Assembly (NCBI GenBank): GCA_032622095.1
Contig: CP136064.1
Location: 251,908,484 to 251,972,483 of the forward strand
Source of the DNA: Siphonodentalium dalli
Taxonomy: Eukaryota; Mollusca; Scaphopoda; Gadilida; Siphonodentaliidae
Reading direction: 5' to 3'
DNA length: 64,000 nt
Shown: positions 6,451 through 31,000 of the stretch, piece after piece
How positions within the stretch are numbered: the stretch's first letter is position 1
How the letters are laid out: each line of letters begins with the position of its first letter
Position numbers and translations under genes: made by a program
Notes under the pieces: generated by a model
The model's input: the letters and a program-made list of their open reading frames with translations, nothing else
Told to the model about the DNA's origin: nothing
Databases searched by the model: none

Positions 6451-6521
6451 ACCTTACAAGCAATTGCGGACATCTTGATATGCGGTTATCCCATTCAGGA
6501 ACGATAACTCTAAAATATACA

Positions 6522-6578
6522 ATGACGTCAGCAATCACGCACGCTATGCGTGCCCTTGGAGTTTTGAAAGCGGCAAAG
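6522..6578 (+). CDS. Possible first coding exon next to the left TIR
   Basis: The ATG lies 11 bases inside the left inverted repeat and opens 19 codons (MTSAITHAMRALGVLKAAK), ending exactly at CAAAG|GTGAGT, a near-consensus splice donor. The 57-base exon is in phase 0. It is too short to assign a family. If real, it is the 5' end of a gene carried by the 24.5-kb unit; I could not identify the next exon. A chance ATG with a donor cannot be excluded. Confidence 0.3.
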
Positions 6579-7441
6579 GTGAGTTTGTTTTAAAGAATAG
6601 TTACAATTAAATTGAGTTATTTAAGACAATTAACATTATAAGAATTTATACGGCAAACGCGCGGAGAATAACTGTATGTTATAGTTGCTGTTGCAACGAA
6701 TATTTGATCAAATAGGTATCAATTTAAGACATTTCAGTCAATAAAACGACGTTTTTCCTAGACTAAATGATGGTGGTCATTGAGGCCATTTAACTTAATC
6801 CAAGTTAATCCTTAAGGGGGTGCCAGCTCCGAGAATAATTGCATGTTATTGGGTATTGTAATTGACATGAGGCCATGTAAGAGTGTTGCAATCGTGACAT
6901 TTACAATACAATTCGTTGAAATTGACTTTTCTATTACAGATAATTAGAATAATATTATTTGTATATCAATATAAACAAGTTTAAGCCATTAAGGTTAGTT
7001 AAACTCCTAGGCTTGGTCTCTTTTGTCAGCTCTGCATTAGTTATCTGACTTATCATTTATCAATATTATCATTTCCATTATTGCCAATAATGGAAAGCTG
7101 TATAAAGTGACTTTATATTGTACCATAAATGATAACAATTTAATTGATTTAATATCAAGTTCATTTCACCGTCACAGCAGCATCTGATTCTGATGCAATT
7201 CAATTTATTTGTTTGTTAAATCTGGTTAAAATTAAATGATAAATCTCTTGATTTGTCTTGTGGCTAGATTAATATAACATAAGATTAATATGATTATGAC
7301 ATTATGGTATTAAAATTAATTATTCCACCAACCAATGTTAAACCATGTACTAGACTAGTATTCAAATAAGTTTGATTAATATTGAATTACGGTAGTTATT
7401 AAATTTGTCCATGGAATCATTATCTCTCAAGAAACAAACAA
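6579..7441. other. AT-rich non-coding stretch
   Basis: No open frame or repeat that I recognise. It has intron-like composition, with many TTAAT and ATTAATAT words. It may be intron of a gene starting at 6522. Confidence 0.4.
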
Positions 7442-7560
7442 ACACACGTACCACAGTTTCGATGGCATAGTAGGTGTGACAATTAATTATGGTGGAGTTT
7501 GGTGACAATTGGCCAACATAATTTATATGGCATAGGAAGTCATGTCGCCCACCGCATATT
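7442..7560 (+). repeat. Harbinger left terminal inverted repeat
   Basis: It pairs with about 11815-11930 in inverse orientation. Near-identity holds over the first 55 bases, then similarity falls off past CATGTCGCCCACCG. Confidence 0.85.
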
Positions 7561-7850
7561 CACACAGTGAGTCGACTGACCAATTAACCCATTGCGTTTC
7601 ACCAAGGCTGATCTCTACTCATTACGTTTAGCCACATTGTATTCTCTACGATACATAAAATTGCACGATCGATCGTCCATAATTGTGTTTGAACCTATTC
7701 ACTCACATATCATGCAAGTGGCATGTTTTTATTGATATGAGCTGAATACATGTTTATCTACTTATATTATTTTCACGCGTATTAAGTCAGTTCCCCAATT
7801 GCGTGTTTTATTTTGCGACGTTAAATTCTACGCATAATTAGGCTAACATC

Positions 7851-8807
7851 ATGTGGACAGATGCAGCTGTATCGGAATTGTTGGAAGCGATGCAGATAAG
7901 AGAAAGTATATGGAATAAACAAAGCGACTTATACAAGGATCTAAACAAGAAAAAAGCTGATTATAACGAACTTTTGGAAATTTTGTCCACGATTATTCCG
8001 GGTTTATCGGAAAAATCACTGAAGAGTAAAATACAGAGTTTAAGGACCATGTATCGAGAGGAAGTGAGAAAGGTGAATAAAAGCAAGAAAAGCGGCGTTG
8101 CTGCCAAAGATATATATGTACCAAAATGGAAGTTTTTTGAGGAATGCTCTTTTCTGGAGGAAAGTCTGTGGACCGGACCAGGGACTTATTCTAACATTCC
8201 ACAAACACGTGCAAATACCGTCGTTTCTGACCACTCCGATGTAACACAAGCCAGTATCTCGGATAGTATTTCAGGTGATGCTGATGTGCCTGCTACCAGC
8301 AGTAATGACACAAACGATAACAGTTCTGTGCAATCGACGCTACCGTCGACATCCAACGTGAGAAGGAAGCGTGGTGCTACGTCATGGGTGGACACAGCAG
8401 CCCAGGCATTCGCTACAATCGCCGATAATGTTACACAGAAAGAGGATGAATGTGATGTGTTTGGTAGAGACATCGCGATGGCACTGAGGCGTTGTCCGGA
8501 TGCAGAAAAACGACGTAGACTCAAGTTTTTGCTACAAACCACTGTATATAATTTTGAAGAGAGCAGCAGCTATTTACAAAATTTCCAAGGAAATCAAAGT
8601 TTCCCTTCAACTTTTATTTCCGGACCGACGGTGCCAGCGTATCCAAATGTTGGATCTTCGATGAATGGACAATCTAATCAAGGATCTAATGTTATGTTCA
8701 CATCGAATTATAATTCTCTGAATGGAATGCAGAATGGTAATGTTTATCCGACTGGACAGTCATGTGTCACCACGGACGTACAACCCCCTAGTACACCAGA
8801 CTGTTGA
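7851..8807 (+). CDS. Harbinger accessory DNA-binding protein, MADF-BESS type
   Basis: 318 residues. Residues about 7-105 form a MADF (Myb/SANT-like) domain: a leading WTDAAVSELLEAM, a central SLKSKIQSLRTMYREEVRKV, and a closing KWKFFEECSFLEES. A Ser/Thr/Asp-rich linker follows with a basic RRKR at 171-174 (possible nuclear signal). Residues about 200-236 (DVFGRDIAMALRRC to KFLLQTTVY) resemble a BESS protein-interaction motif. The tail is rich in Asn, Ser and Gln. In PIF/Harbinger elements the Myb-like partner binds the termini and helps bring the transposase to nucleus and DNA. That role is inferred here from the domain and from its convergent placement with the transposase inside the same inverted repeats. 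The ATG is the first in the frame; no upstream exon is evident. Confidence 0.88.
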   Translation: MWTDAAVSELLEAMQIRESIWNKQSDLYKDLNKKKADYNELLEILSTIIPGLSEKSLKSKIQSLRTMYREEVRKVNKSKKSGVAAKDIYVPKWKFFEECSFLEESLWTGPGTYSNIPQTRANTVVSDHSDVTQASISDSISGDADVPATSSNDTNDNSSVQSTLPSTSNVRRKRGATSWVDTAAQAFATIADNVTQKEDECDVFGRDIAMALRRCPDAEKRRRLKFLLQTTVYNFEESSSYLQNFQGNQSFPSTFISGPTVPAYPNVGSSMNGQSNQGSNVMFTSNYNSLNGMQNGNVYPTGQSCVTTDVQPPSTPDC

Positions 8808-9924
8808 ACTGATGACTGACATTTTGAACTAGTTCGTTGGTGTCTTGAGATAATTGATTAAAAGAGCGTTCGTGAGTTTCTTATGTGTCATTCCATTTTA
8901 TCACTGACATGGGGATAGGGAGAAGTGGATGGTAATCGACCGCACTGATGGTAAAAAAATCCAACTAGTTAAAAAGAGACACAAGGCAGTCGCAGTGGGT
9001 TCAAGTAAATGTGGAAAATAAAATAAAAATATTTAATAAATATAACAAAATTAATTAACATGGAAAAAGTATTTTTTATTATCAATACTGATAACTCCGA
9101 TGACGATGTATAGCATGTTGGCACCATTCTTTTGTAAACAGTACTGTTACACGCCAGTCATCCCATACATATCGCCAAATGGAGTAGCTAATCAAATGTT
9201 AAGTCGAAATTTTTTTTGGTTTAATTTATTGTTGTTACCATTTGTAAATTGATCTTAATTTGCTGATCTGTTTACATAACATATGTTTTAACATGTGACA
9301 TCTCATCATTGGATGACTGCATATAGACAGTAATGTGGATATTTCCAACAACAAATATGGAGAAAATAAGACTTTTGATCTTTCATATCGGACTCGGGGG
9401 GGGGGGGGGGGGTCAAAATTCGAAGTTGGACATACGCAGAAAAGATAACTTATAAACACACCCATACACGCCGGAACCACATATATTAATGTTAAGAACA
9501 GTTGTTCCGGGGATAAATTAGCTTGGTAAATACGTTACTCAAGGAACGACTTGCAGATCGATTGGGATCATTGGATTTTGACCGGCAGAGTAATTAAATA
9601 AAGTGTGTGAATCCCAAAATGATTCAAACGAACTTTGTTTAACTACCCTGCCGGTCAAAACCAATGACCCCAATCAACCAGCAAGTCATTCCTTATAATC
9701 ATATATCAGTACATGTTAATATTAGTCATTTGAAAAATATTTCAAAACTACCAAAACAATTGTCAAGAGTTCAATGACACCTACATTTAAGCAGCGAAAT
9801 ATTTACATATGGCATATTACTGGGACTACACGACTATACACATAAACCGCACACATTATAAAACATAGTTTATAGTTTAATCTCATTAAATCGAGTGTTG
9901 AATTTTGCAAGCACATAATAATTA
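8808..9924. other. Intergenic part of Harbinger element
   Basis: The spacer between the 3' ends of the two convergent genes. It is AT-rich, with an AAATAAAATAAAA stretch near 9018 and a run of Gs at 9397-9412. It contains the hairpin element at 9541-9696 and no coding frame that I would support. Confidence 0.7.
9541..9696. repeat. Small hairpin (MITE-like) element
   Basis: Left arm AAGGAACGACTTGCAG... through TTTTGACCGGCAG; right arm CTGCCGGTCAAAACC... through AAGTCATTCCTT. The arms are about 55-60 bp with a 40-bp loop. It is non-coding and sits inside the Harbinger element, so it is younger than it or was carried with it. Confidence 0.75.
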
Positions 9925-11550
9925 TTACTCAATAAGACTCCACTGAAAAGGGAGCGCACCCTCATCAAAAAAAAAGTCACTGAGTTCGTCCCTCACTTCA
10001 CGAGCATCGACATTCGGAACAGTTGTCGAATCTCCAATATCTCCAGTTGCAGTCAACTGTGCATTATGTTCAGCATATCGTAAACATCCGCTCTGCGAAA
10101 CACCTAAATCCGCATCCTTCCCAAGAAAATTGTGAAGAGCAATGCATGCACGGACTACCCGATTCACGTTATCGGTGTCCAACTGTATGGACCCTAGAAG
10201 TATTCTAAATCTAGCCACCAAAACACCAAATGCACACTCGACGGTCCTACGTGCCCTCGAAAGTCGGTAATTGAAAACTTTCTGATCACCAATGGCTGTT
10301 CGATGGGGATACGGCTTCATTAGGTGATTGCTTAATGCGAAAGCGTCATCACCAACAAGGAAATACGGTATGCTCAGTGTTCTGTTAGGACTGGAAAGTG
10401 GACTAGCATCTGGGAAGTTCTGCTGTATATCACACATCCCACTGTCCTTGAAAATGCCACCATCAGCACTACTCCCTGGTGATCCCAGATCATAACATAT
10501 AAATTTTCCCGTTGCATCAACTACAGCCATCAGAACAATGCTCTCGTAGTCCTTATAGTTCCGATGATCGCATGCACTGTCAGACGGCCTCCGAATTTCA
10601 ATGTGTTTCCCATCGATTGCACCCAAGCAATGAGGAAACTGCCACATTTTGTCAAAGTTATCTGCGTGGAGCAACCACTCTTGCTTGTTTTCGGGCATTC
10701 TCAAGAAATCTCCCTGTAGAGTGTCGTAAATAGCATCACAAACTTCCGGAATAAACGCACCAATGGTTGATCTGGCGATTCTGGAAGTGAAGTGTAGACT
10801 TGTGTACGTTTCCCCTGTAGCAAGAAATCTGAGTGTTGTGGCAAGTTTTTCATATGGAGTCAACGCTGATCTCATAACTGTATCTTGTTTCGCAATCAAT
10901 GGGGTCACTTTTTGCAATACGGTATGGAACTCCGACTTGTTCAGCCTGAAGAAAAAAGAAAACACCATGTAAAGTAGCTCATAACATATTTTGACAAATT
11001 ATCACCCCCTCCCATATGCAATCATAGAATGGGCCATATTTTATACGCTGAAAACGACGCAGAAGACACAGACGCCGAAAACACAGAATGCCAAAATAAC
11101 TTTACTGCAAATACGCACGCATTCTCACCCAAGAACATTCGCACGATGCGTTGTAATGTATAGGCCCCCGGTGGCACTGGAACTATGTACATCATGGGAC
11201 TGTGGCACCAGCCATCAACTCACCCTATAATATATTTTATATTGTCCACCCATGTGAAATGGTTATGTCTCAATAGTAATACTCTCCTGGTAATATGCAC
11301 CTATCAACATAAACATTTATATTTACCTCGTGAAGTTGGTGAATTCTTTCTCATCCGCGTCTTCTAATTCCTGCAGTAGACTGTGAGAAATTCCATACCG
11401 GTTCCGTTCTAGGGTGGAGTTCATTGGTTTTGTCCAGCACTTACGATTTAGATGTCGTTTTGTTCGTTCCAGTTCTCCCAATAGTAACGTGCCCAGACCC
11501 ACAAGGGCCAACAACGTATCATCATTCGACCGTACATGTGAACGCGACAT
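9925..11550 (-). CDS. PIF/Harbinger transposase (DDE_Tnp_4 type), two exons
   Basis: Exon 1 is 11550-11327 and exon 2 is 10945-9925 on the minus strand. The donor reads CACGAG|GTAAAT and the acceptor TTTTTTCTTCAG|GCTGAAC, splitting one Arg codon. The joined frame is 414 codons and stays open. The start chosen is the Met preceding SRSHVRSNDD; an in-frame Met at 11634 is possible. The N-terminal part is helix-turn-helix-like. The DDE fold shows AIDGKH (Asp about 186), LVGDDAF (Asp about 274) and RTVECAFGVL (Glu about 311), with the usual FRIL and C-terminal ALHNFL. It cuts and pastes elements bearing the matching inverted repeats, with the MADF partner as cofactor. All three acidic residues are present and no frameshift is seen, so an active enzyme is plausible. 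Confidence 0.92.
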
Positions 11551-12140
11551 AACACTTATAACTGATCGCAATGTTTGACCCACTTTTATATATGCTGAGA
11601 AATTACACCGGTGATTTGTTCTTAGTAAGAACAATCATGACTGTTGACAGAAACAAGGTATTCATTAAGTTATCAAGTGGACTTGTGTGTTAGCATTAAA
11701 ATATAACATTGCGTGTTGAGTAAAGATCAACAGCGACAAGACATTCGGTTAGATAAATCATTGAGATGTCGATCTCGACGCTGATAGAGCTTGGAAAAGA
11801 CTCATTGTGTGAATGTCCGGCGGGCGACATGGCTCACTATGGCACAGAAATATGACGACCAAGTGTCACCAATATTGCACCATAATTAATTGTCACACCT
11901 ACTATGCCATCGAAACTGTGATACGTGTGTCCGCAGCCAATATCTCTACTACTAGTAAACACCAAAACAGTCTAAAGTACTATTATTGAATTAATCCCAG
12001 TTCCCACCCATGGTATGAATTTTGTTTATATTTACAGCTATTAATCTCCAGGTTGCAGTTGACAGTGCACACTCAGTTCAGATTAGATATCTACAAAAGA
12101 GTCAAGCAGTCATACTGTAGCAAGCGAAAAGAGTGCAAAG

Positions 12141-12416
12141 ATGGCAGACAATGAAAATGGTGAGTTTTTGGATTCTATCAATCAGATTCAGAGATGGGAT
12201 CTCAACTCAAAAGCAAAATTTCTGAGTCTTGAAATTCTTAATGGAATATCGGACATTTCAGATGGAGATTTAATTAATGTTATTGAACCTCCAGTAGTTA
12301 TGGCGGATGTCACTCAGCTCACATGTATCCCGCCAATGGAGGATGTTACATCGTGTTTAAATCAATTAAATAAAATAGACAAGCCAGACAAAAAAACAAT
12401 TGACCACAATTCTTGA
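12141..12416 (+). CDS. Hypothetical protein, unrecognised
   Basis: 91 codons just outside the Harbinger right end. It is acidic, with no family I can name and no transmembrane segment. The ATG has a purine at -3 (GCAAAGATGG). A strong splice-donor match (AATG|GTGAGT) lies 19 bases into the frame, and an acceptor TTTTGTTTTCAG lies near 13700, so the transcript could splice out most of this frame. It may therefore be a first exon. Real coding is uncertain. Confidence 0.3.
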   Translation: MADNENGEFLDSINQIQRWDLNSKAKFLSLEILNGISDISDGDLINVIEPPVVMADVTQLTCIPPMEDVTSCLNQLNKIDKPDKKTIDHNS

Positions 12417-12658
12417 CCAGTGGGGAAGGGAATTGACAACTTGACTAAGCATTGACTTAACAGTGGTGGCTTTACTGGCTTAATGCATGCTGCTTACTAT
12501 GAATCATTATCCCTTGTTAGATTTTGACAACATCAAGATCTAACTAAGGATATTAATTCACAGTGAACAAAACATATTCTGTTGTGGCTAGTGATAATTT
12601 AACTACCAATTTACATTATTGGCCATAAATTAAACCAAAATAAATTTGTATCAGCCTA

Positions 12659-13044
12659 CTCTTGAGTGCCTAATAAACATACATGTACGATTATTAAAAT
12701 CGAGGTAAAATTCCCACCTGTACGATCGTTATTTGGTCCTGTACGTTTATTAAATTAACCAAAAGAAATAATTCACCAATCTTAAATTGTGTTATTCATA
12801 GATAAATGAACTCTGATTATTGACAGTGATCAGAACACTGTAGATGCACAGACCTGGCTATCAATCAAAACTATTTCTGTCACATGGCATCAGTAAACCA
12901 GTCAGATGGTGCGTTTTGTTGGGATGTATGGTACTAATAGTTCCAGTCTGTACGTTTATTCTGCCCTGTACTATTATTCAGTTACGCGACATTTTCCAAC
13001 CTGTACTATTATTCCACCCTGTACTTTTATTAGGCACTCAAGAG
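12659..13044. mobile_element. TA-flanked MITE (about 0.39 kb)
   Basis: Terminal repeats CTCTTGAGTGCCTAATAAA and TTTATTAGGCACTCAAGAG, each bordered by TA, as Tc1/mariner-type elements leave. The interior repeats CCTGTAC-TATTATT several times in both orientations. The 88-codon frame crossing its right half is a by-product. Confidence 0.75.
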
Positions 13045-13046
13045 TA

Positions 13047-14183
13047 TGACAAACTTAATAGCATTGGTGTACCTGGTTTATTAAAACATCCACTTTTGAC
13101 TCGAAGATGAAGAGGTGCATGTTGGTCAGGTTTGTTCAGCATGAATACCGCTTAAACTTGTCTGACAGCATTTCACAACTCTGAAGCGCAGATGAGTGCT
13201 AGGGCCCACTCTCATCTGACAGTTGTTGAGAGTGCATCTTCCAATTAAAGGGGAAGACATGCTGACAACTATTTAACACTCTTCTCTATTTCTCATAAAC
13301 CTGTTGCGAGACAATGCATTTTCTATTTAAAGAAATAACTGTTTAATGTCATTTTCAAACTGGGATCTATTTATATATGAATCTTTGTTTAATTTATAGA
13401 ATAGAATAGAGTTCATTTACCAATAAAGGCCCTCAGTGGGTAAGTTACAAAGTGTTATAAGTATAACAAACATATAGTATATTCATTGGTGGAGTATTTA
13501 TTAGGTTCAATATCTATCCCACAAGATTATATCTGAATCAACATGGATGTATTTCCCGATATACTAATTATACATTTATATATGTAGTAAAATGCTTGCG
13601 GGCATGGGAGCAGTAACCAACGAGTATCACCCATGATTGGAGGTTTGCACTTTTCCTGTTTCCGAAAGTAACAAATACCTCACTTTATTTTGTTTTCAGA
13701 TGCTGTGTCTGTTAAGACCAATGTATGACAAAAAACATTAACTGAAGACTAATATAACTTGGGCTGAACAGGCGATAAAAAGAGACATTTGTGTTACAGC
13801 ATGCATTTAAATTGTATCAATATATGTTATCTGAATATCTTAATGCCGGAAATCAATGCCGGTTTAATATAAATCAATCAACGTCATTAGTGTCTTTCGT
13901 CATGAACCCTACCTTACTGAATAGGAGTTATTAATACACCCTTGTTATGCCCGAACCGAAGGAGAAGTCAAGGTTATATTAGTGGAGACCGTCATCTGTC
14001 CATCTGTAACATAGATATTTGTTTTGAATTTCGTCCATTTATTTTTACCGGCATCAGAATTACCGCACTTGTTTGACTTGATTCTGAATTTTGTCTCTGT
14101 ATGAACTGTTCAACCTGTACCTTGGGCATGGATAATCGGATTTGGTTATATTTGACATATATATACACATATATATACTATTT
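13047..14183. other. No recognised feature
   Basis: Non-coding. It shows short local repeats only (ACATATATATAC near 14157). Nothing I can assign. Confidence 0.5.
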
Positions 14184-14760
14184 AGCTAGCCATATTGATA
14201 GTTATAATGTAACTAGCTAGATATAGGCTCCACCCTTGTTAGATACACAGACTATTCTAAATTGCTGGGTATATATTCTAGCCACCATAGCTAGCCATAT
14301 TGATAGTTATATCCTCCTAGATAGACTGACTAATCTCTATGACTAGCTATAGTGACTAATGTAACTAGCTAGATATAGGCTCCACCCTTGTTAGATGCAC
14401 GGACTATTGTAAATTGCTGGCTATATATTCTAGCCACCATAGGTAGCCATATTGATAGTTATATCCTCCTAGATAGACTGACTAATCTCTATGACTAGCT
14501 ATAGTGACTAATGTAACTAGCTAGATATAGGCTCCACCCTTGTTAGATGCACGGACTATTCTAAATTGCTGGCTATATATTCTAGTCACCATAGCTAGCC
14601 ATATTGATAGTTATATCCTCCTAGATAGACTGACTAATCTCTATGACTAGCTATAGTGACTAATGTAACTAGCAGGATATAGGCTCCACCCTTGTTAGAT
14701 ACATGGACTATTCTAAATTACTGGCTAGATAGACTGGCCACCATAGCTAATAAACTTGGG
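14184..14760. repeat. 152-bp tandem repeat, about 4 copies
   Basis: GTAACTAGCTAGATATAGGC recurs at 14209, 14361 and 14513, and with one change at 14664. The period is 151-152 bp and the copies are highly alike. The first and last units are partial. It lies 3' of the TRPT1-like exons on their strand and could lie in an intron. Confidence 0.9.
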
Positions 14761-15004
14761 CAATATTACTTCATATATAGGCTAACCATAACTACATGTA
14801 GTGACTAATGTAAAGGGCAGTCACCCAATGACAATCTATATTAACTAGTGACATTGCTGATATTCTAAACACCATTACATACATGCCACATTCTGGGTGA
14901 GACAAAATATCAATAGCAATATATAGGTTCAACAAATTATTTTATATGTTTAAAAAATAGCTGAATAGCCCTGGAGCTATCTAAGACACATCTGAAATAT
15001 TCAC

Positions 15005-15043
15005 CTGACTTATTCTAAGTTTTTCTGTGGGGTCATCCTCTAG
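15005..15043 (-). CDS. Candidate exon, 13 codons, near TRPT1-like gene
   Basis: On the minus strand, CATGTTTTCAG|CTAGAG... ends at AGTCAG|GTGAAT, enclosing 39 bases in phase 0 (LEDDPTEKLRISQ). The acceptor is good and the donor fair. It lies downstream of the TRPT1-like exons and in a compatible phase, so it may continue that gene. It is too short to prove. A second, weaker candidate is 15246-15281 (ending CCAATA|GTAAGT). Confidence 0.35.
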
Positions 15044-15689
15044 CTGAAAACATGGAATAAAATATATTATGTCATCACAGTACCAGGCCAATTTCCATAG
15101 CCTTGGTATCCTACATATACAAGTTTGTAGTGCAGTTGTTTAAAACGAAAATGCTCCTCTAGCCAGCTCTAGCGATCTAATTTCATATCCAATACACTGT
15201 TACAATGAGCTAAGTAGTGTTATGTTGGGTATTCTGAGAACTTACTATTGGAACATGATCTTTAATGGTGCACCAACGCAGCTCCCATCATGAGATAGTT
15301 AATAAAAGGATAAAAATGAACAAGCAATGACAGTCTGTGTTTGTGTATTTTTAATTCTTCAACATGAAGTTGACAGACCAAGCTCAGAATTTCAAAATAG
15401 AAAACATGAATGTGACAATGGTTCAGGAAGGATAACTCTAAAATATAAAAAATTCACATTTTCAATCAGTAAAGACCTACCAGATGGACATCTCCTGCAC
15501 AGATATATAGCATGCACATGCATAGATATATAGCATGTCCCTGGTCACAAAAGATAGACTTGAAAATTGAAGAAAAAACATACTTCCAATTGCATATCAG
15601 CATCCCATGAATCAGAATGTGTCTCCACCTTGGAGCTGTAGTATATTTGATTAAAGGGACATCTCCTGTACAGATATTCCATGGTTATC

Positions 15690-16500
15690 GAGCTAGATCA
15701 AAATCAAGGGAATTTTCAACACCGACATGACAAACATATCCACAGTATAGGATCAAAGTGCCACAATTTTATGGTTAGTTTAATAGGCTATATATGGTCT
15801 ATTTTATCTCATGTGTGTCTGTGTGTGTGTGTAATCGATGAACTCGAAAACGGCCGACCCGATTTTGATGAAACTTGGTAGGAGTATGTGGGGGTATTTT
15901 CAGCCCGGGAGTGGCATAGGCCTATTAATTTGCCCGTGCAATTATCCGATTTCAAGGTCAAATCGCACGGGCAAATTAATAGGCCCATGTCACTCCCTGG
16001 CTCAAAATACCCCCACATACCAAGTTTCATCGAAATCGGCTAGGCCGTTTTTGAGTCCATCGATTACAGACCGACACACACACAGACAGACAGATCTTCC
16101 AAAATATATAATAGATAATAATTTCTCATAATAATCATGCAATCTAAAGTTCTTATTTTAGAATACCAGCGCGGTCTCCAGTCAGATTCGAACTGACAAT
16201 CCCCTCAGTGTAAACTGAGGTGCACTCACCAATGTGCTGTAGAAACGGATATAAAGCTGGCATTAAAAAACAACAGTAGAACCCCCCCCCCCCCCGGCCA
16301 GTGCACCACTGCATGTACTAATACATTGTACTATAAAAAAATGTATTTTCTTTACATGTGACAAAATAGATCATATATACCGGTAGCTTATTAAACTAAC
16401 CATAAAATTGTGGCACTTTGAATCCTAGGCCTAGATGTATTTGTCGGGTTGATGTTGAAAATTCGCTTGAGCGTTTTGATCTACATTAGACATTGATGAC
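15690..16500. repeat. Nested inverted-repeat element
   Basis: The outer arms 15697-15797 and 16376-16496 are inverse copies (AAAGTGCCACAATTTTATGG and GAATTTTCAACA blocks). Between them lies an almost perfect palindrome at 15838-16070, centred near 15957, with AATTTGCCCGTG and ACCCCCACATACCAAGTTTC arms. Then come an ACAGACAGACAG tract, a tRNA-like segment and a poly-C run at 16281. The inner palindrome has the same consensus as the units at 45060-45345. Confidence 0.8.
16168..16250 (-). other. tRNA-like segment, probable SINE head
   Basis: On the minus strand it has an A-box-like AGCACATTGGTGAGTGC, an 18-base hairpin CCTCAGTTTACACTGAGG where an anticodon arm would be, and a B-box-like CAGTTCGAATCTGACTG. 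The anticodon loop does not have the normal 7 bases, and no acceptor stem pairs well. I read it as a tRNA-derived SINE remnant or tRNA pseudogene, not a functional tRNA. Confidence 0.45.
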
Positions 16501-17029
16501 GGCGCCGGCTTATTTTCATTATTCAGTCTAAAACTTGGTATTCGCTACATTCTAAATGGTCTGATTGTTTGTTGCTAAGAAATCGACATCAAAATATACA
16601 CATTGGGCCAGCAACTTTTTTGCCTATGAATAAAAAACAAACTCGAAATCAATAAACACTGTCACTGTCGTATATTGAAAAACTAATGGTGTAACTTATT
16701 GATTATGGATATATGGATATATAAGATGTAATTAAATGTAAACTGTAGATAAAAATGATGATAAAAATCGTAAATAAATTCGCAATCGAAAATATCACGT
16801 GACAACCTAATCTCATGAATATATTCATGAGCTCAGCCTATACCAGGCCTCAAATACATTTGCTAGCCTGGGTACTAGGCTACATAGACCCTGATAGTCT
16901 CTGGCAATTGCCAATTTTAATTACACTGGCTATACCAGGCTATACAGGAAGTTTACAAATAAATTGACGACTTTTAGAGTAGTCATCTAGAGTTCATCAA
17001 AAAGAAGTTTGTTGACGATCGGATTACAG

Positions 17030-17100
17030 ATGTGGTCTAAAGGATTTAGTCATGCAATGAGTAAAATCCAAGATGGCTGCTGGCGGCCATGTTTTTATTT
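17030..17100 (+). repeat. Single fragment of the approximately 160-bp Helentron satellite
   Basis: AAAGGATTTAGTCATGCAATG and AAAATCCAAGATGGCTGCTG match the array unit at 48256-52980. One unit only, followed by diverged sequence to about 17230 with AGCTCAACTTTGTCAAGTT, which resembles the terminal AGCTCAACTTTAC of that element. Confidence 0.6.
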
Positions 17101-17259
17101 GAAAATTGTTTAAATTTGATGTCTTCCAACTAAAGGAAGATCCATATGAAGTTTGGTGATGATCATAAGAGATATGCGGATGCCAACCCATGGCTATAGC
17201 TCAACTTTGTCAAGTTGCAATGAGCTATATATTCAATGTCAAAAGACTACTATACTCAC

Positions 17260-19825: not shown

Positions 19826-19860
19826 AGAGCGATCCAGTACTAGCTAGCAAATATATTTAT

Positions 19861-20181: not shown

Positions 20182-20219
20182 AATTACCAAATCTAACTTG
20201 AAATTACCAACTGTACACT

Positions 20220-22615
20220 AGTGATCACCCCCTCCTCCAGCTCAAGAAGTCCCAAGTCTTAGGTTGAAATTTCACAACCGACATCTCAAACTTTATCAAT
20301 TGTTGGAAATTTTCAATCTCAATAGCGCTTTATATAAAACCATTTAGACATGTTTAAAGCCCAATTATCCATGGACCCAAAAACACTATATGTTATTATG
20401 TCTGTCAGATTAATCAGTCAGGTAGTTCCAAGGTAGACGTTTTAATGAATTTTGTATTTTAATGATTTTTTATACACAAAAGTCTTAAGTCCCCATAGCC
20501 CCGTCATTTCTTAATGGGTTGACCTCATGTTAACAGATCTGAATCTCAGTCACTAAAGGATCCTCCATACTATATGGTCCAACCTCTCTTGAGAAGACAT
20601 TATAAGTATTACTATAGAGACATACAGTTATGTCCCTGGTCCCACCATATTTAACCTGGTGACCCCATCTGCATAAATTTGAATCCCAGACACCAAAGAA
20701 CCCTTCATACTAAATATCAGTAAAATAAACCTGACGGTCCGTGTAAAGGAAGCATATTAAGAGGAAAACTGTCCTTTGCTTGGCCACTATTTGACCAGGA
20801 TGACCCAATTTGAACAAATCTGAACTAGTCACCAAAGGACCATTCATACCAAATATGAACCAATTCAACCTGATGGTACACGAGAAGTCGTTTTTAAGAA
20901 TTACTATGGAGGGCAAGAGTTATGGCCCTGGCTTCACAACCATTTGACAGTGACCTCATTTGAACAAATCTGAATGTGAGTCACCTAGGGAACATCCACA
21001 CCAAATATGAACCCATTCAGTCTTATGACCTAGAGAAGATGTTCAAAGAATTGTTGACAGATGGATGGACGGACAGACAGATGAACAGGTGACAGATGAG
21101 AAGTGATGACTATAGCTTCTTCTCATAAGAGCTTCAAATTTACATTTCATTGAACAAATCTGTCAGTCACCCCCCCCCCCCCAACACTGTGGGGACATCC
21201 CTGTGAGAATATGACATACAACATTTATTTGACTACATTAGCTTAACAAAATTTCCATGACCTTGAGAGCAAGTGCATCCTGAGAATTATATTCCATTCA
21301 TGAAACCATCAGCTACCAGTGTCTGAGAGGTGTTGACATAGATTATTAGGTTTTAACGACTGCACACACAGCTTTTTGATACTCCTACAGCTGTGATCAA
21401 AACAAGGATTTTAATGGGGTGAACAAGGAAGAGATAACATGGTATGATACAGTGTGGTGTGGCAGGGACAGGAGGTGGGGTGGGGGAGGGTGGGATTGGG
21501 TAGCTGTGATATATCTAAAAAAAATCAAAGGTCAAAATGCAAAAATGTTTTATTTTTTTAGAGTTATGTCCCTGGCTCTGCCCCTATTTGACCCAGTGAC
21601 ACCATTTGACCAAATCTGAACCCCAGTCACCCAAGGTCTATCTGTACCAAATATAAGCTAAATCGGCCAAATATTGTTTTAGAAGAATTCATTGTAAGAA
21701 TTACTATGAGTTATGGCCCTGGTTTCTCAACTAATTGACCGGGTGACCTCATTTGAACACATCTGAACACCAGTCACCCAAGGACCCTCCATACCAAATA
21801 TTAGTTAAATCGGCCCAATGGTTCTGAAAAAGAAGTCGTTGTAAGAATTACTATGGAGGAATAGAGTTATGGCCCTGGCTTCGCAACTATTTGACCCAGT
21901 GACCTCATTTGAACAAATCTGAATGAGAGTCACCTAGGGAACATCCACACCAAATATGAACCAATTCGGTCTTCCGGTTTCAGAGGAGAAGATGTTCAAA
22001 GAATTGTTGATGGACGGACGGATGGACGGCACGACGAACAAATGGGTAGATATGTGGCCCCGACCTATGTGGCTAGAAATGGTAATGTGGCTTTAGTTTT
22101 TATGTGGCTTCTCAAGTAGCCATAAAATTGTATGTGGCTATCAAGTAGTAGATAGTGATCAAACTCTAGATTATGGATTCACAACATGTTGGAATTATAG
22201 CAGAAGAAGCTGATTAAAACTCAAAAACTTGCACACAGCAACTGGGACAGTGAAATAGGAGAAACTGACAGGTCCGTGATTGGGTGGCTAGCCACATAAA
22301 TGTCCGTCAGTGTCCGACATCTCATATTGACAGCTCATGGATGTCTAAATATATGGACTTTTTGTTTCCAAATTTTGAGTGACTACAAAATTAAATAAGC
22401 TGATTAGACCAAATAGATCATTTTTGAACGTCCATCTGAAAGCTGTTACGTGGCTAGCCACACAACGGAAGTTATGCACATAAATATCCATTTTACACAA
22501 TCTTAGCCACATAAGTAGTCATTAGTAAACACGGACGGATGGACAGATGGACGGACGGACGAGGAGTGATGACTATAGCTCCACCGGAGACTTCGTCTCA
22601 GGTGAGCTAAAAAGT
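20220..22615. repeat. Interspersed repeat with GACGGACGG tract, two rearranged copies
   Basis: AGTTATGGCCCTGG, CAACTATTTGACC, TTTGAACAAATCTGAA and AGAAGATGTTCAAAGAATTG recur with the same order at about 20919-21100 and 21868-22050. Each copy runs into GGACGGACGG and ends in GTGATGACTATAGCT; the second ends TCAGGTGAGCTAAAA. Inside the second copy's GACGG tract an approximately 470-bp segment with inverted TATGTGGCTA ends (about 22050-22515) is inserted. The class is abundant in mollusc genomes to my knowledge. No coding frame is seen. Confidence 0.65.
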
Positions 22616-22635
22616 AATTAATAACTAGAGTGCAT

Positions 22636-22785
22636 TGAATAAAGAGCTACCATTCTCTAACTGATTAAATTAAATATGCTATCACCAGCCCTTTTATTTA
22701 TTATAGTGATAGGCTTTAAAGAAATATAAGGGCTGACAACATCATGTAATTCAATCAGTTAGATAATGAACGCTCTTTTATATTC
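22636..22785. repeat. Short inverted-repeat element with AAAGAGC ends
   Basis: AATAAAGAGC...TCTAACTGATT is mirrored by AATCAGTTAGATAATGAACGCTCTTT; an inner TCACCAGCCCTT / AAGGGCTGACA pair continues the fold. It is about 150 bp and non-coding. 22786-23889 beyond it shows only a TTTTTTTATAG run and two further ACGCTCTTTA motifs. Confidence 0.6.
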
Positions 22786-23925
22786 CAATGGCCTACCTAA
22801 AATAAAGAGCGTTCAATCAGTAGGAAAAATACATGTAAGTAAGTGCGTGCTATGTAAACTAAACAACTGATTGTTACAATAAAGGACTTTCAAGGCTGGA
22901 CAAAAACACACTCACCAATGATTAAATTTGGTTTATTGAACCGGTATAACTACCAGTATATAAATACAGAGTTCTTTTTTTTTATAGAATTTTCTATTCT
23001 CTAGCTAGCATCAAAATATTAGCCTTCCCATGGTTCCCTATCTATATGGTTCACTATCCTAGTTCAACACCAATTAACAGTTCAAAACTGCAAGACAAGT
23101 AGAATGTTCAATTACGCTATTTCTGATTGATTCTCTGAAATGTGTAACACTGATCAGTGTGACTTTAATATACAAATAGAAAGAAGATTATAATTTATTG
23201 TTTCTTCAAACTGCATCTAACTCCGAGTCCCCATGCCATGGAACAAAACGCTCTTTATTGTAAGTGTCAGTTGAGTCTAATTTTGAATACACGTATGCTC
23301 TTTAAAATATTTTGATTCTATAGCATTAGCACAACATACATGTCGTACATTATATCTAATGTTTGCAAGCAGTTTTAACCAAATATACCTTCATATACCA
23401 TGATTCAAACGCACAAACATTGAAAACAAACATACAGATGAGTGATGACGGACTTTCGGTCATCACACCGTACCAAGGATAGAAACTCTATCTGGCATGT
23501 TTGAAAGTTGGCACAGTACTCTTGGGCTCCAAATAAACATGCATGCGCATAGTCATGTAATACAGTAATATGTTACATGTAGCTCCTCCTGCTTTGGCCA
23601 TTTAACCACGTTTTGTCAACATGTTTTCCGACTGGATTTTTGGATTAAATTATTACGGAATCATGCACACGTTCTGGTAGGTGTCAGAGCTAATATATTA
23701 CCGGTACAAAAATTGTTAACATTAATAACTATGTTAGTGGATTCTTAAAAATAAGTGTATATAAAAAAAATAGCTACTCGCTAAAGCTGAAGCGCCACGG
23801 CGGTCAGACCTGGATGGCCTTTAGCCATATTACCTAGACCCGATGGCACTAGAAATGTATTTCATCATTTCTAGTGCCGCACGGCCCCGCATACCCTGCG
23901 TTGAGCTATCTATTTCACAACATTT

Positions 23926-26900
23926 ATATTTTGGACCTCTTGAATTGGAGATGGTGGATGAATATAAATATTTAGGTATTATTTTTCACAAAGGTGGAAC
24001 CTTAATCAAAGCTGCTGATAGCTTATCAGAGAAAGCATATTATGCCATAAAAAGCAAACTAAAGGATTACCAAAATTTATCAGTGAAAACATGGATGCAA
24101 ATAGTCAATTCTATGATAATTCCAATAATGACATATGGATCAGAAATATGGATTTATGATTTAAATATTAACCCTAACTGAATGAAACACATATTTAGTT
24201 CATGTGTTGATAAAACTTATACTTCAATCATGAAAGACATACTAGGTGTTAACAGTAAAGCTACAAATATTGCAGTATACTCAGAACTCAATACTATACC
24301 AACATGCTTAAAAATGTTTCACTCAGCATTCAAATTTCAGAGGAGGTTGATGGAGGTCAGTAAATCTGGGGACTCATCTTATAGACATAAATTATTAATC
24401 TCTGCATTCAATGAAGATAACCTAATTCAGAAAATCAGGCTAAAAATGTCATGGGCTAATTCGTTGACTCAAATAGAGAAATTTGTGGGCCAAAAACTCA
24501 CAATTATGAATGGATCAGAATTAAAAAACTTAATAACAGTTACATATAACTTAAAAGTTGAAAATGATTATAAAAGAATGATGAATCTCAATGAAGGTAA
24601 ACTAAGGTTTTACAGCAAAATTTATGGAATCACCAAACTCCAAGACTATCTCACATATAACATTCCAAAGGCGAATCGAAAATAATTGACTAAATTGAGG
24701 ATTATAGTCCAGGAGATATTGGTCGACCTCTGCAACCCCCCCCCCCGACCTCAACTTCACCCCACTAATTTTCTTCCTCAAGGTCTCCTCTAATATTTTT
24801 CACTTGTTAACAAGAAAAAAAAGTGGCCGCATAGACTCCAGACAAGATGGCGTCCATCATGGCGGCCATTTTTTTTAATGCACCAGGTCTTTTTGATCGC
24901 CATTATAGTAAAGATTATAGCACATGCGGTCTTGTTTTCCGCTCGATTCGTTATGCTAATATACAACCCTTATCAATTAGCCAAAAATCCGACACCAGAA
25001 TCCAATATGGCGGCCAAGATGGCCGCCGAAATGTGAAAATATGCTATTTTTCTGACATGTTACCACCTTTCGTTTGTCTCTGTGGGAAAATGTTAGAATT
25101 TTTGCGTCATGTTATACATTTATCATATAGAGGAGTCATTGGCGAACACACGGGGACCATAATATGCATTCATTGCGGAATATTTTTGCCCGATATCACG
25201 TTTTCCCAAATGCCGGTATCATAGGTCAAAGCCGAATCTCCGTTAATAACGCGATGTTATGTTTCGAATCAATGAATGTTATTGCTATTATAGCAACACA
25301 CATGCATATATATTTGCAGGAGATACTCCAGATAGGATTCCTCTTATACCTGAGTTGAGGAATATTTACCCAAATCCAAGATGGCGGCCAAAATGGCCAC
25401 CAGAAATAAAAAATCGCCGAAAATCGCTGATTTTAACATCAATGAGCATTATTGTCATGACAACTCCACACCTGCTTACTATTGTAAGTTGGGAACACTT
25501 AGGCGAAGAACTTTCCTTGTACCATATCCAAACAAAAGTCCCCCAAATTCAAAATGGCGCCCACAATGGCGGACAGATTTTGAAAAATCACCGAAATTCC
25601 CTCATATTCATAACATTGGGCATTATTGTCGAGACAACTCCATCCGTGCGTACAGTTGAGTTGGAAATACTGAGGTGAAGTAATTACCTTACATCTCATG
25701 CAAGAAATGGTTTTCCAAATCGAAGATGGCGACCGAAATTTGAAAACAAGTCTACATTCCTTTACATTCTTACGATGGGCGTTATTGTTTCGCGATTTCT
25801 ATCCAGCATTACATGTTGATATGGAATAGTGATATGAAGTATTCATTAGGGTTTGGCAATTGATACTCACAGCCAAGATCGCTGCTAAATTGGCGGCTAG
25901 AAATTGAAAAGAAATCGATATTTTCACATATTAATTTCAACTTTTTGTCATAATATCGGTATGTATGGACGAAACTGTACATAAACCATCTGCTAGTTCA
26001 ACTTAAAGGTATAAAAACGCATAACATAGTTCGTATCCTTCTGGAAAGATGAAAAACCACCATTAATATCGCGATGTGGCATTTCGAAATCCAGTCTCCA
26101 CTTAGCACCGATAATGGCCGTAAGCGAGGTGCGCCGAATAGTTATATCAGAACAATTACCTGATAACAGATTCTGATTTGCCACGTCACGTCCATAATTA
26201 TCTGGACCAGCTTCCATTTCTTTGTCTGATAAATATAGGTCGCTCACACCGACAAATTATTCACCACTTCCTGGGAGTAGGGTCCCTCTAATCATAACGT
26301 TTCAAACAATTCATTTTCCGGTGTCTAGCTTACGATTTTAAATATTTGCTAAATATGATATTTGTGCGTCATCTTGAACTAGGAAGGTACATGGCCGATG
26401 AGTATACAAGCTTACAGAAGGTCATCTCTATGTATGTGTCTCATACCCCATGGGATAACGACATGTACACCTGGTGAACCAGTTAGCTAGTCACTTCTCA
26501 ATAGATGGTTTATCAACTCACAAACTCAGCGAACGCATTGGCATATGTGGACAACTTCGACAGTGTTTCGAAGGTTGCTAGCTGTCTCATTCCCTTGGAC
26601 AGATGTATATCTGCTAAGGAGAAGACCCTAGTGTACAGACTACCCACACTTCTTGACCATTATCCGAAGCAAACTGTGTGACGCCCCGCAGTTGTCTCGT
26701 CGAATATCTCCCAGCAGAGAAGAACAATGCTCGCGGTGCTAGTTTGTGGACATGCGCCATGATACTGGGAATGAAATGGGCCACTGTATACACCACCCCT
26801 ACACCTGGTGCATGTTTAAGATATCGAATGGCATGCGTGCCGGTTTTATTTGGTGTGGTAAGATTGAATTTCCACATCCGTTTCGAAGCCTTTCTGATTC

Positions 26901-29900
26901 AACTACGTACACTTTTGCCTGGATAATACTATGCTAGCCTCCCTCAAAACAGTCGGATGGACTAAAGGATAATGTCTTAAAAGCATGAATGTATGCGTGT
27001 TTTGTTATCCTCTCTCGGGGTTAGGGTCAGTATGTGGGCGATATTATTCAAGAAAATGTCAGGAACTGTGGTGCATTTATTTCACTATGTATTTAAAGAA
27101 CAATATACAGTCTCGATGGCAATGGCTGTGGACGTTGTGGAACGCGACCTTTATGATCATATAGCTTTATATATATATAACTTTAGAATATAGTAGTTAA
27201 TGTCTCATGCAGGAAAATGGTCGCATTGATTATGTTACCAAGAAATCACTTGGTGTACCAACGTTTGTTGAACTGAATGCAAGAGCTCATCAATGTAACA
27301 TTCCTCTGGATGTTCTTCGCGTTGAACATTTAACCCTTTTGTTGGTGGCATTTGTACATTCTTGAACCATACCACCCAGCGTGAGCATGACATATCAACC
27401 AACTATCAAAGGTATCGCCTTTAAGACTACACCCCAGTTTTGGTGGGGCTTATACCGCAGTAGCCAATGGCATACTCCTGGTCCAGTTGTTTAAGAACGG
27501 CTTCCAAACGGATGGGAACATACACTCTTAGCATACAAGGAAGGCAAAGCCACACATGAGATCCTGTCGGAATCTAAATCATAACAAAATGAGGGGCGGT
27601 GCAGTCATGGTCCAATTTCATTTCCACTGTCATGACACATACCCACAAACTAGCACCGTGTGTATTGTTCTCATCTGCTTGGATCTGTTCGGTGAAACGA
27701 TTGCTGGACGCCAACAAGCTTGTTCTTATGATCATGTTCAAGGAGTTTGGGTATATTATGCATTATGGTCTTCTACGGCTACGCCTAAGCAGAAATACAT
27801 CCGTCAAATGTCGGGCTTTCAACATTCAAAGCCATATACAGAAGTTGTCCGGGTACGTCAGTGCATTAGATGAGTATGTGAATTGATAAACCATATATTG
27901 AGAAGTGGCTGTTTGGGAAGATCACCAGGTGTACACGTTGTTATCCCCATTAGGTCACCAAAGCTGACAATACGCAGATAGATAGGTCCTTCTGAAAGCT
28001 AGTATACGCATCGACCGAATACCTTTATGGTGTATCGCACAAGATGACGCATATACCCCATATGTAGCATCTGAATTATACCATAAGCTATACCACGAAT
28101 GAAGCTCGCTAAGAATTCCAAGTTTTCGAAACAAACACGTGAGCTGGACACCGGCATATGTATTGTTTGAAACATTCCGATTAGTGGCACACTCCTACAA
28201 AGAAGAGTAGTGAACTGTTATTGTGAGTGAGATAGATTAATCTGACGAAGAGATGGAAACGAGTCTAGATAATACTGAATGTGGCAATTCAGAATAAGCT
28301 CAGGTACTGTTGTTTTGATTCTTGGAAGTCATAATATGACTATTCGGCGCACCTATATACGGTTACGGCCAGTATAAGCCCTTAGTGGAGAATGGATTTT
28401 GAAATGCCACATTGCGATTGTGGGTTTTCATCATTCCAAAAGGCTACGACTTGCATTGGAACTAATAGATGGCTCATATTATGTACCGTTTCGTTTATAC
28501 AAATCAATATTATGACAAAAAGTTGAAATTAGTATGTGATAATATCGGCTTCTTTCCAATTTCTGCCTGTCAGTTTGGCCGCCATATTGACTGTGAGTAT
28601 CACTTGCCAAACCCTAATGAATAATTCATACATATCAACATGTAATGGTGGGTAGAAATCGCGAAACAATAACGCCCATCCTAAGAAAGTAAAGGAATGT
28701 AGGCGTGTTTTCAAATTTCGGTCGCCGTTTTGGCAGCCATCTTCGATTTGGAAAACCATTTCTTGCATGAGATGTAAGGTAATTACTTCATCTCAGTATT
28801 TCCAACTCAGCTGTACGCATGGATGGAGTTGTCTCCACAATAATGCCCAATGATGTGAATATGAGGAAATTTCGGTGATTTTTCAAAATCTGTCCGCCAT
28901 TGTGTGCGCCATTTTGGATTTGGGGGACTTTTATTTGAATTTGGTACAAGGAAAGTTCTTCGCCTAAGTGTTCCCAACTTATAATAGTAAGCAGGTGTGG
29001 AGTTGTCATGACAATAATGCTCACTGATGTTAAAATCAGCGATTTTCGGCGATTTTTTATTTCTGGTGGCCATTTTGGCCGCCATCTTGGATTTGGGTAA
29101 ATATTCCTCAACTCAGGTATAAGAGGAATCCTAGCTCGAGTATCTCCTGCAAATATATATGCATGAGTGTTGTTATAATAGCAATAACATTCATTGATTC
29201 GAAACATAACATCGCGTTATTAACGGAGATTCGGCTTTGACCTATGATACCGGTATTTGGGAAAACGTGATATCGGACAAAAATATCCCACAATGAATGC
29301 ATATTATGGTCCCCGTGTGTTCGCCAATGACTCCTCTATATGATAAATGTATAACATGACGCAAAAATTCTAACATTTTCCCACAGAGACAAACGAAAGG
29401 TGGTAACATGTCATAAAAATAGCATATTTTCACATTTCGGCGGCCATCTTGGCCGCCATATTGGATTCTGGTGTCAGATTTTTGGCTAATTTGTAAGGGT
29501 TGTATATTAGCATAACGAATCGAGCGGAAAAAAGACCACATGTGCTATCATCTTTACTATAATGGCGATCAAAGAGACCTGGTGCATTAAAATAAAATGG
29601 CCGCCATGATGGACGCCATCTTGTCTGGAGTCTCTGCGGCCACTTGTTTTTCTTGTTAACAAGTGAAAAAAATTAGAGGAGACCTTAAGGAAGAAAATTA
29701 GTGGGGTGAAGTTGAGTCCTGGTGGGGGTGCAGAGGTCGACCAATATCTCCTGGACTATTAGTGCTCATGGCCTACATATTGAAACAGGAAGATATACTA
29801 GACCAAAACAAGACGTTTCGGACAGATTGTGCAACTTTTGTCCCAAACAAGTTAAAGACGAAATACACTTTTTATACTATTGTACTATGTATAAAGACTT

Positions 29901-30051
29901 GAGAAGAAAATATGACATATTTCAACTGGGGGAAAATATTAACAACCCCAAGATGCTGCTGAATCCAAAAACCTTCTCTGCAACAAAGCAAATATGTAAT
30001 TTCATCAAAGAAGCCCTAGATAAACGTAAATCAAACATACCCTCGAATTAA
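23926..30051 (+). pseudogene. LINE reverse transcriptase C-terminal region, disrupted
   Basis: The frame 23926-24701 reads VDEYKYLGIIFHKGG, the thumb-side motif following the RT catalytic core, then YGSEIW. It has a TGA at 24179-24181 and a TAA at 24683-24685 in the same frame. After the foldback the frame resumes at 29762-30051 with the region around IETGRYTRPK and a Cys-x2-Cys-x7-His-x4-Cys finger (CNFC...HFLYYC). The catalytic RT core and endonuclease are absent. The order matches CR1/L2/Jockey-like LINE ORF2 ends; I do not assign the clade. Confidence 0.85.
24705..29758. mobile_element. 5054-bp full-length foldback element, TTA target duplication
   Basis: The ends read TAGTCCAGGAGATATTGGTC in both orientations, with TTA at 24702-24704 and 29759-29761. 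The interrupted LINE codons rejoin when one TTA is removed, so the boundaries are certain. The two halves are inverse copies from end to centre: near-identical for the outer approximately 1.3 kb, then increasingly diverged towards the middle (about 27230), where GTGCTAGTTTGTGG and TACACCTGGTGA blocks still match. Each arm carries many ATGGCGGCC-type boxes. No recognised transposase. The 3-bp TTA duplication would suit PIF/Harbinger-type mobilisation. Frames seen here repeat on opposite strands and look like repeat shadows. Confidence 0.9.
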
Positions 30052-30326
30052 TCTATTATTATATATTAACGACTAGAGATATAGCTCATATTACGAAATA
30101 TTAACAAGAGGTTGGTATAGGGTGAGTTAACCAACACATTTAAACTACATATACATATATACCGTATATATATATTAATTTAGGCAGTAATAATATATTA
30201 ATGATTATATGTGAGACGATATTTATTTATGTATTATATTATATGTTATTTTATTCTTGGATTACGCTACACTATGGACATATCCAATAAAGAATTTGAA
30301 TTTGAATTTGAATTTGAATTTTTCAA

Positions 30327-30563
30327 CTAAACAATGAATGCTGGCCTTATTATCTCACCATATTTTTCAGTCGGTACTCCCCGCCACAAGTTGACGCCAA
30401 AATTTCCATGTGTCGGTGTATCTAAATCCTTTAATCGGACATTTCTAAACTGTCGAATGTTGGTGACCTCGATAAGTCGTCCATCTTCACGTTCTTGTTG
30501 ACATTTTACACAAGGCCAGCATTCATTGTTTAGTTGAAAAATGTTGTGAAATAGATAGCTCAA
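30327..30563 (-). CDS. Hypothetical ORF in the hairpin element
   Basis: 78 codons covering the loop and one arm of the inverted-repeat element. It contains CWPCVKCQQE and FGVNLWRGVPTEKYGE, which look protein-like, but I cannot assign a family. The arm part is necessarily shared with the repeat. It may be a fragment of a gene captured between the arms. Confidence 0.25.
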   Translation of the reverse strand: MSYLFHNIFQLNNECWPCVKCQQEREDGRLIEVTNIRQFRNVRLKDLDTPTHGNFGVNLWRGVPTEKYGEIIRPAFIV

Positions 30564-30579
30564 CGCAGGGTATGGGGGA

Positions 30580-30933
30580 CCACCAGCCGCCCTAATGGGC
30601 AGTTTGAGCTGATCATTAGGGCGGCGTACTGTCTAATATTACCACTGTAATACCAGGTCTGGTCAGATTACAGATAATTATGGCATTGTCTATTCAGGCT
30701 ATTCGCCTGGCTATTGCAGTATTGGTAATCTAAACAAATAATATTAATAAGAATTGCATTACAAATTAGCCAAAGAGGTACATAACCGTATAGATCAGAA
30801 TTCATCATTGTTAAACCCGCAAAGTTCCTCTTAAAAACAAACAAGCAAAGTTCCTCTTAAAAAGAATTTGACCGCTAAGAAGGCAAATAAAACAGCGTCG
30901 GAAGTTAACGGCGGGTGCTATAACGCACACATC
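30580..30933. other. No recognised feature
   Basis: The segment between the hairpin element and the right TIR of the 24.5-kb unit. It has a short CCCTAATGGGC / GATCATTAGGG inverted pair and the duplicated AAAGTTCCTCTTAAAA near 30820-30860. No frame worth supporting. Confidence 0.4.
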
Positions 30934-31000
30934 GAGTTATCGTTCCTGAATGGGATAACCGCATGTCAAGATGTCCGCAGTTGCACCTTGCAAGGTAGCT

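Follow-up and report, generated by a model that had tools for sequence, protein, structure and literature searches.

A putative segment bounded by terminal inverted repeats, with intron-bearing host-gene exon fragments, in a retrotransposon long terminal repeat of Siphonodentalium dalli

Analysis of a 64,000-nucleotide stretch of the genome of the scaphopod mollusc Siphonodentalium dalli (assembly GCA_032622095.1, contig CP136064.1, positions 251,908,484 to 251,972,483 of the forward strand; hereafter the window, numbered from its first letter) identified a 24.5-kb unit with terminal inverted repeats (TIRs) lying within the 3′ long terminal repeat (LTR) of a retrotransposon. The sequence is, in our best reading, a TIR-bounded segment that sits in the LTR and carries intron-bearing exon fragments of a host gene. 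On balance, we lean toward the view that the unit is a large non-autonomous TIR DNA transposon that took up gene DNA and was already assembled when it inserted, as one block, in the 3′ LTR. The LTRs and the unit are arranged in the window as follows.

2461 to 2917, plus strand: 5′ LTR, 457 bp, with TG...CA ends and ATAC directly before it
6065 to 6450, plus strand: left part of the 3′ LTR; 6065-6337 is common to the 5′ LTR and 6338-6450 is not
6451 to 30996: TIR-bounded unit, 24,546 bp, with limits taken from the TIR/AGCT anatomy
30997 to 31714, plus strand: right part of the 3′ LTR; 31540-31714 is common to the 5′ LTR and 30997-31539 is not; ATAC follows

Comparison of the window with itself aligned 2461-2733 with 6065-6337 at 99% identity and 2743-2918 with 31540-31715 at 98%, and the shared LTR sites contained eight mismatches in approximately 449 (1.8%). 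The two parts of the 3′ LTR were complementary and did not overlap. The outer LTR ends were TG...CA and were flanked on either side by ATAC, a four-base flank match of a kind found for 0.55% of random position pairs. Together, the complementary parts and the shared ATAC at the outer ends indicated that about 25 kb had entered an existing LTR and split it, and the proposal of the initial annotation that the outer LTR halves are joined by an ATAC target duplication was borne out. A purine-rich tract, which we take to be a polypurine tract-like motif, directly precedes the start of the 3′ LTR at 6065. Three open reading frames (ORFs) between the LTRs are presumably gag-like; none had a Pfam match above the cut-off, the best being DUF29 (E 0.0095, 16.6 bits against a cut-off of 22.5).

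The 3′ LTR had also been described as interrupted exactly at the inverted ends. Judged against the 5′ LTR, however, the interruption spans 6338-31539, which places its limits 113 bp and 543 bp outside those ends. The 5′ LTR has no counterparts of 6338-6450 (113 bp) and 30997-31539 (543 bp), about 650 bp together, and in their place stands a 9-bp filler (2734-2742) that repeats the neighboring CTCTAAG and resembles a templated deletion scar. Most simply, these sequences would derive from an ancestral LTR of about 1.1 kb whose 5′ copy underwent a deletion with templated filler, in which case LTR sequence flanks the unit on both sides. If the extra 650 bp were instead an insertion into the 3′ LTR, the loss of the filler would also need explaining. 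As the 5′ LTR lacks the junction region, the boundaries at 6451 and 30996 are drawn from the anatomy of the TIRs and AGCT alone.

6447 to 6450: left AGCT, either target duplication or outermost TIR bases
6451 to 6510, plus strand: left TIR, starting ACCTTACAAGCAATTGCGG
30934 to 30996, minus strand: right TIR, starting ACCTTGCAAGGTGCAACTGCGG on the minus strand
30997 to 31000: right AGCT, either target duplication or outermost TIR bases

The alignment of 6447-6510 with 31000-30934 was identical in 61 of 67 columns (91.0%; E about 1e-21 in the window), with an ungapped match of 51 nt at 96%. The aligned part opened with AGCTACCTTRCAAG at either end, and both outer edges lay at the same TIR position. 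With up to three mismatches, a 34-base TIR core was present at two places only in the window, namely these two ends. The inverted ends of about 60 bp noted initially were upheld. Searches of the window by pattern and by blastn of the ends found no further TIR copies, the one exception being 29 bases of the inner part that blastn matched at 15422. This stretch (15422-15450), inside the unit, repeats 6494-6522, which comprises the inner left TIR and bases beyond it, at 27 of 29 positions and in direct orientation, and is possibly a relic of a second copy. An exact 34-mer had no matches in viral_contigs and an exact 26-mer had none in genome_contigs, neither of which is a collection of animal genomes.

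AGCT is its own reverse complement and is present at both outer edges of the unit. On its sequence it may be a 4-bp target duplication, or it could equally represent the outermost TIR bases, as one copy cannot distinguish the two. A 10-bp direct repeat, CAAGGTAGCT, had been put forward as bordering the unit. This did not hold up: CAAGGT lies outside the unit on the left and is the TIR end itself on the right, and only AGCT can be a target duplication. Several other arrangements were considered and rejected. A 10-bp CAAGGTAGCT duplication would leave the termini ACCTTACAAG and CAAGGTGCAA, which by eye are mismatched, as are the termini resulting from an 8- or 9-bp duplication of the hAT, P or MULE type and the ends GCTACC and CCTTGC resulting from a TA duplication of the Tc1/mariner type. 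Two intact miniature inverted-repeat transposable elements (MITEs) flanking a passenger would each need a second TIR; none was found in the window, where a strongly decayed one could escape, and the lack of a further TIR copy speaks against such an arrangement.

The host-gene DNA within the unit consists of two exons.

18460 to 18531, minus strand: Tpt1/KptA-like exon containing LSRVVLKILRHG, with acceptor TTTTCAG and donor GTAACC
17260 to 17430, minus strand: Tpt1/KptA-like exon with acceptor TTTTAG, donor GTGAGT and an internal single-nucleotide frameshift

Joined with no change of frame, the two exons matched PF01885 (Tpt1/KptA) at E 4.1e-07 (30.7 bits against a cut-off of 26), and the value was 8.3e-08 when the end was taken from another frame. 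The second exon alone had no match at E ≤0.1, and in read-through frames neither exon was detected by Pfam at E ≤1. All four hits of the frame-changed version to the PDB at E ≤10 were RNA 2′-phosphotransferases (E 0.51-0.91), and of the two records found in a comparison of the exons with plasmids one was an RNA 2′-phosphotransferase (E 0.6). When a plasmid KptA was used as the tblastn query (E ≤100), the first exon was the top hit (E 1.2) and the second was present at E 7.2 amid chance hits, among the matches listed; nothing consistent with the catalytic half of Tpt1 was identified among them. A motif scan for the catalytic half gave seven matches to HG[TS] and one to H[VIM]H[LF]; every one of them was on the plus strand, opposite to the exons. 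Some likeness to the second half of Tpt1 at 26444-26500 (E 4.3) was taken as chance, as it lies on the opposite strand, contains a stop and falls inside a palindrome. Based on these sequences, we regard the exons not as a gene but as a piece of the Tpt1/KptA N-terminal lobe that contains introns and is frameshifted. The TRPT1-like exons of the initial annotation therefore stood as a fragment with introns and splice sites, one that is frameshifted and whose catalytic half was not found. Capture of Tpt1 by a transposon was not reported among the literature matches listed, which is no proof of its absence.

Much of the remaining interior is repetitive, and the following repeats were identified within it.

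7442 to 11930: nested PIF/Harbinger (PHIS) transposon, encoding a MADF protein (7854-8804, plus strand) and a DDE_Tnp_4 transposase (9928-10998, minus strand)
12655 to 13048: nested MITE-like inverted repeat with ends CTCTTGAGTG and TA on both flanks
14198 to 14843: 152-bp tandem array
15694 to 16483: inverted-repeat element with 80% arms, an inner palindrome and a tRNA-like stretch (16173-16246, minus strand)
19322 to 19825: nested MITE-like element with ends TTAAAGGTACTCAATCCGA and relatives at 119-270, outside the unit
20500 to 22040: degenerate tandem/interspersed repeat with units of about 150 bp, limits by eye
23883 to 30581: older inverted-repeat element, arms 23883-23925 plus 30322-30348 against 30512-30581
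23926 to 30321, plus strand: 5′-truncated long interspersed nuclear element (LINE)-like sequence with a (GAATTT)5 tail, inserted in the 23883-30581 element
24704 to 29759: 5-kb palindrome inserted in the LINE-like sequence, its flanks read as a TTA duplication

Nested or tandem repeats made up 14,817 of the 24,546 bp of the unit (about 60%), as computed from eight repeat intervals, some with limits set by eye; the other 9,729 bp, to which the Tpt1 exons belong, fell outside these intervals. The Harbinger transposase ORF (357 residues) covered the whole DDE_Tnp_4 Pfam model (2.4e-28), and the MADF protein was matched at 4.2e-11. The inverted ends of this transposon were 98% identical over 53 nt and 86% over 133, and no matching 3-bp flanks were seen at 7442-11930. 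In the right-hand part of the unit, the flanks of the LINE-like sequence formed a 70-bp inverted repeat (68 of 70 identical) once that sequence was skipped, which indicated that it had landed in an older inverted-repeat element. There are thus three levels of nesting, with the 5-kb palindrome inside the LINE-like sequence and the latter inside the inverted-repeat element. The arms of the palindrome (24704-26334 and 29759-28138) were 86.5% alike over 1,674 columns. We assume that 23926-30321 is a LINE from protein motifs that we recognized in it; Pfam gave no match above the cut-off for any of the three ORFs in it, and the LINE-like ORF has a broken frame.

Six-frame Pfam scans covered 6451-7441, 11931-23905 and 30322-30996; only four ORFs were scanned within 23926-30321 and only three within the Harbinger. 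The six-frame scans found no transposase outside the nested Harbinger, with the limit that one in small exons could escape, since the same kind of scan had missed the two Tpt1 exons. Neither polymerase B nor a tyrosine recombinase was detected in the Pfam scans, which within the Harbinger and 23926-30321 covered the selected ORFs; this agrees with what had been stated at the outset.

Based on these observations, we propose that a non-autonomous TIR transposon entered the 3′ LTR by cut-and-paste, with a 4-bp AGCT duplication or, if AGCT belongs to the TIR, with none visible. The interior would have consisted mostly of older repeats, together with a DNA-level capture, introns included, of two Tpt1/TRPT1 exons. 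A transposase supplied in trans and acting on the ends of about 60 bp would have mobilized the block once the LTR element was in place, and most of the 24.5 kb would have come in a single step. What came then was perhaps limited to the 9.7 kb outside the repeat intervals and the older nested elements.

A different history, which we consider doubtful, is that a short MITE-like TIR element of about 1 kb in the LTR grew in place by successive insertions (Harbinger, MITEs, LINE, palindrome and tandem arrays), along with a duplicated genomic piece containing the Tpt1 exons. The eight repeat intervals would account in this way for the greater part of the unit, and the Harbinger may be young, given its full-length ORFs and closely similar inverted ends. 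However, the 9,729 bp with the Tpt1 exons are in no repeat interval, and so many insertions since the LTRs diverged by 1.8% would be unusual. In addition, the divergence of the palindrome arms exceeds that of the LTRs; the arms, at 86.5%, and the broken LINE-like frame suggest that some of the interior predates the LTR insertion. It is this older-looking palindrome and LINE-like ORF that favor arrival of a pre-assembled block over growth in place.

Arrival of a pre-assembled block nevertheless has several points weighing against it. The divergence of the palindrome arms can serve as a clock only on the assumption that both started out identical, the nested Harbinger has a young appearance with its full ORFs, and the interior could have grown in place. 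A single copy of the unit was seen within the 64-kb window, the scanned parts yielded neither a transposase of its own nor a known superfamily signature, and the 5′ LTR, in which the junction region is missing, offers no check on where the unit meets the LTR.

It is unlikely, in our estimation, that no single element exists here and that the ends are a chance inverse pair of a dispersed repeat, the 25 kb having come by segmental duplication, repair insertion or an assembly join of LTR copies. Long inverted pairs were common in the window: 27 were found with at least 50 nt, at least 80% identity, E ≤1e-8 and a separation of more than 5 kb. Most of these (21) join the satellite region at 48-53 kb (once a fragment at 17.0 kb) with 62 kb, leaving six others, and the pair of the unit had the highest identity of all (91.0% against 88.5% for the next). 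Because such pairs are common, the presence of an inverted pair says little by itself, and it is the LTR context that carries the argument. A chance pairing would also be consistent with a junction that the 5′ LTR does not confirm and, if AGCT is TIR sequence, with the lack of a visible target duplication. Against it, both outer edges lie at the same TIR position and the LTR parts are complementary and share ATAC, a match rarely expected by chance.

Compared with known systems, the unit has the TIRs of a class II element at both ends; the only transposase found in it was that of the nested Harbinger, and one in small exons could escape. Pack-MULE and other Pack-TYPE elements are similar in having inverted ends around captured gene DNA and no transposase of their own, and in the unit the joined exons that match PF01885 lie between the TIRs. 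On the two features compared, inverted ends and captured gene DNA, the unit fits a Pack-TYPE element and may work like one. Target duplications of MULEs are 8-11 bp, in contrast to 4 bp or none here. CACTA ends begin with CAC, whereas those of the unit begin with ACCTT, and no EnSpm transposase was found in the parts scanned. The portion of one report that deals with such elements gives Pack-MULEs as mostly 1-2 kb, with none above 7 kb in the original description, and as found in plants; it also describes enlarged En/Spm (CACTA) families of 16-20 kb with extra content in Chondrus crispus, which resemble the unit as TIR elements of similar size with extra content (PMC6431247). At 24.5 kb the unit exceeds both the Pack-MULEs and these CACTA families, and its 9.7-kb core outside the repeat intervals exceeds the Pack-MULEs only.

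Polintons/Mavericks, Teratorn and Starships resemble the unit in size, being tens of kb or more. In contrast to them, the scanned parts of the unit contained no polymerase B, viral genes, piggyBac transposase or tyrosine recombinase; the Pfam scans thus gave neither the protein-primed polymerase B and integrase of Polintons/Mavericks nor the tyrosine recombinase of Starships and Crypton-like elements. KolobokP elements, composite-like DNA transposons of seven animal phyla, were rejected on architecture, as they have long terminal direct repeats and autonomous lengths of 4.0-4.7 kb in the part of their description concerned (PMC9587614). Kolobok also makes TTAA duplications, whereas the unit has AGCT or none. 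For PHIS transposons, the relevant part of PMC4482050 lists 3-bp targets (TWA, ANT, CWG and TNA), AT, or, for Spy, AAATTT insertion without duplication. PIF/Harbinger (PHIS) was accordingly rejected for the whole unit, which has AGCT or none and flanks other than AAA/TTT, and the ends of the nested Harbinger are unrelated.

The suggestion of a new type of large cargo-carrying DNA transposon was sustained for the TIR-bounded, exon-carrying insert in the LTR. The words "new type" went too far, as one copy was seen, the scanned parts gave no transposase of its own, about 60% of the interior is repeats, and non-autonomous TIR elements that are large or carry gene fragments have been described before. 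No large cargo- or gene-capturing animal element of this type was found among the literature matches listed, which does not prove absence. We judge it very unlikely that the unit represents an undescribed superfamily of large TIR transposons that make a palindromic AGCT duplication and move blocks of 10-25 kb with multi-exon host-gene DNA in an animal.

A putative first exon abutting the left TIR had also been indicated.

6522 to 6578, plus strand: weak candidate first exon, a 19-codon ORF ending at a GTGAGT donor

This amounted to a 57-base ORF, from an ATG at 6522 to a donor from 6579, at the sole NAGGTRAGT match in the unit, a count near the approximately 1.5 matches on both strands that we estimated by hand from base composition to occur by chance. 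Its peptide is, we presume, similar to the start of a helix-turn-helix; a loose helix-turn-helix pattern gave nine matches on both strands of the unit, none a convincing continuation. A minus-strand ORF at 30330-30632 with a donor-like site, considered as a transposase exon, lies in large part inside the older inverted-repeat element and had no Pfam match above the cut-off, and ORFs at 12087-12413 and 19816-20178 had no Pfam match. Hence, despite this short ORF and donor just inside the left TIR, the 9.7 kb outside the repeat intervals, the recurrence of the 29-base left-end stretch at 15422-15450 and the small exons that read-through scans may miss, we give hardly any credence to the unit being an autonomous member of an undescribed giant TIR family with a transposase in small exons starting beside the left TIR: the six-frame scans gave no Pfam transposase in the parts that they covered outside the Harbinger, the helix-turn-helix has no convincing continuation, and chance alone should give ORFs of about 100 codons at this composition (hand estimate).

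DNA transposition is said, in the part of PMC6431247 that treats cargo, to lose efficiency above about 6 kb. If the block moved as a unit, it would represent cut-and-paste of about 10 kb or more, above that size, with intron-bearing gene DNA in an animal, and such movement would have implications for the duplication and shuffling of gene fragments. Growth in place would make this an ordinary nested-repeat region.

Other repeats were observed in and around the unit. The tRNA-like stretch of the 15694-16483 element matched Rfam RF00005 (43.2 bits), and the inner palindrome of this element recurs near 45.0-45.3 kb. A 164-bp satellite (AAATCCAAGATGGCTGC...) occupies 48716-52885, and a 60-bp fragment of it is also present inside the unit at 17037-17096. 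The 84-bp tandem repeats at 53954-56048 had a weak match to zf-H2C2_2, below the curated cut-off, in two of the three plus-strand frames, and are perhaps a decayed C2H2 array.

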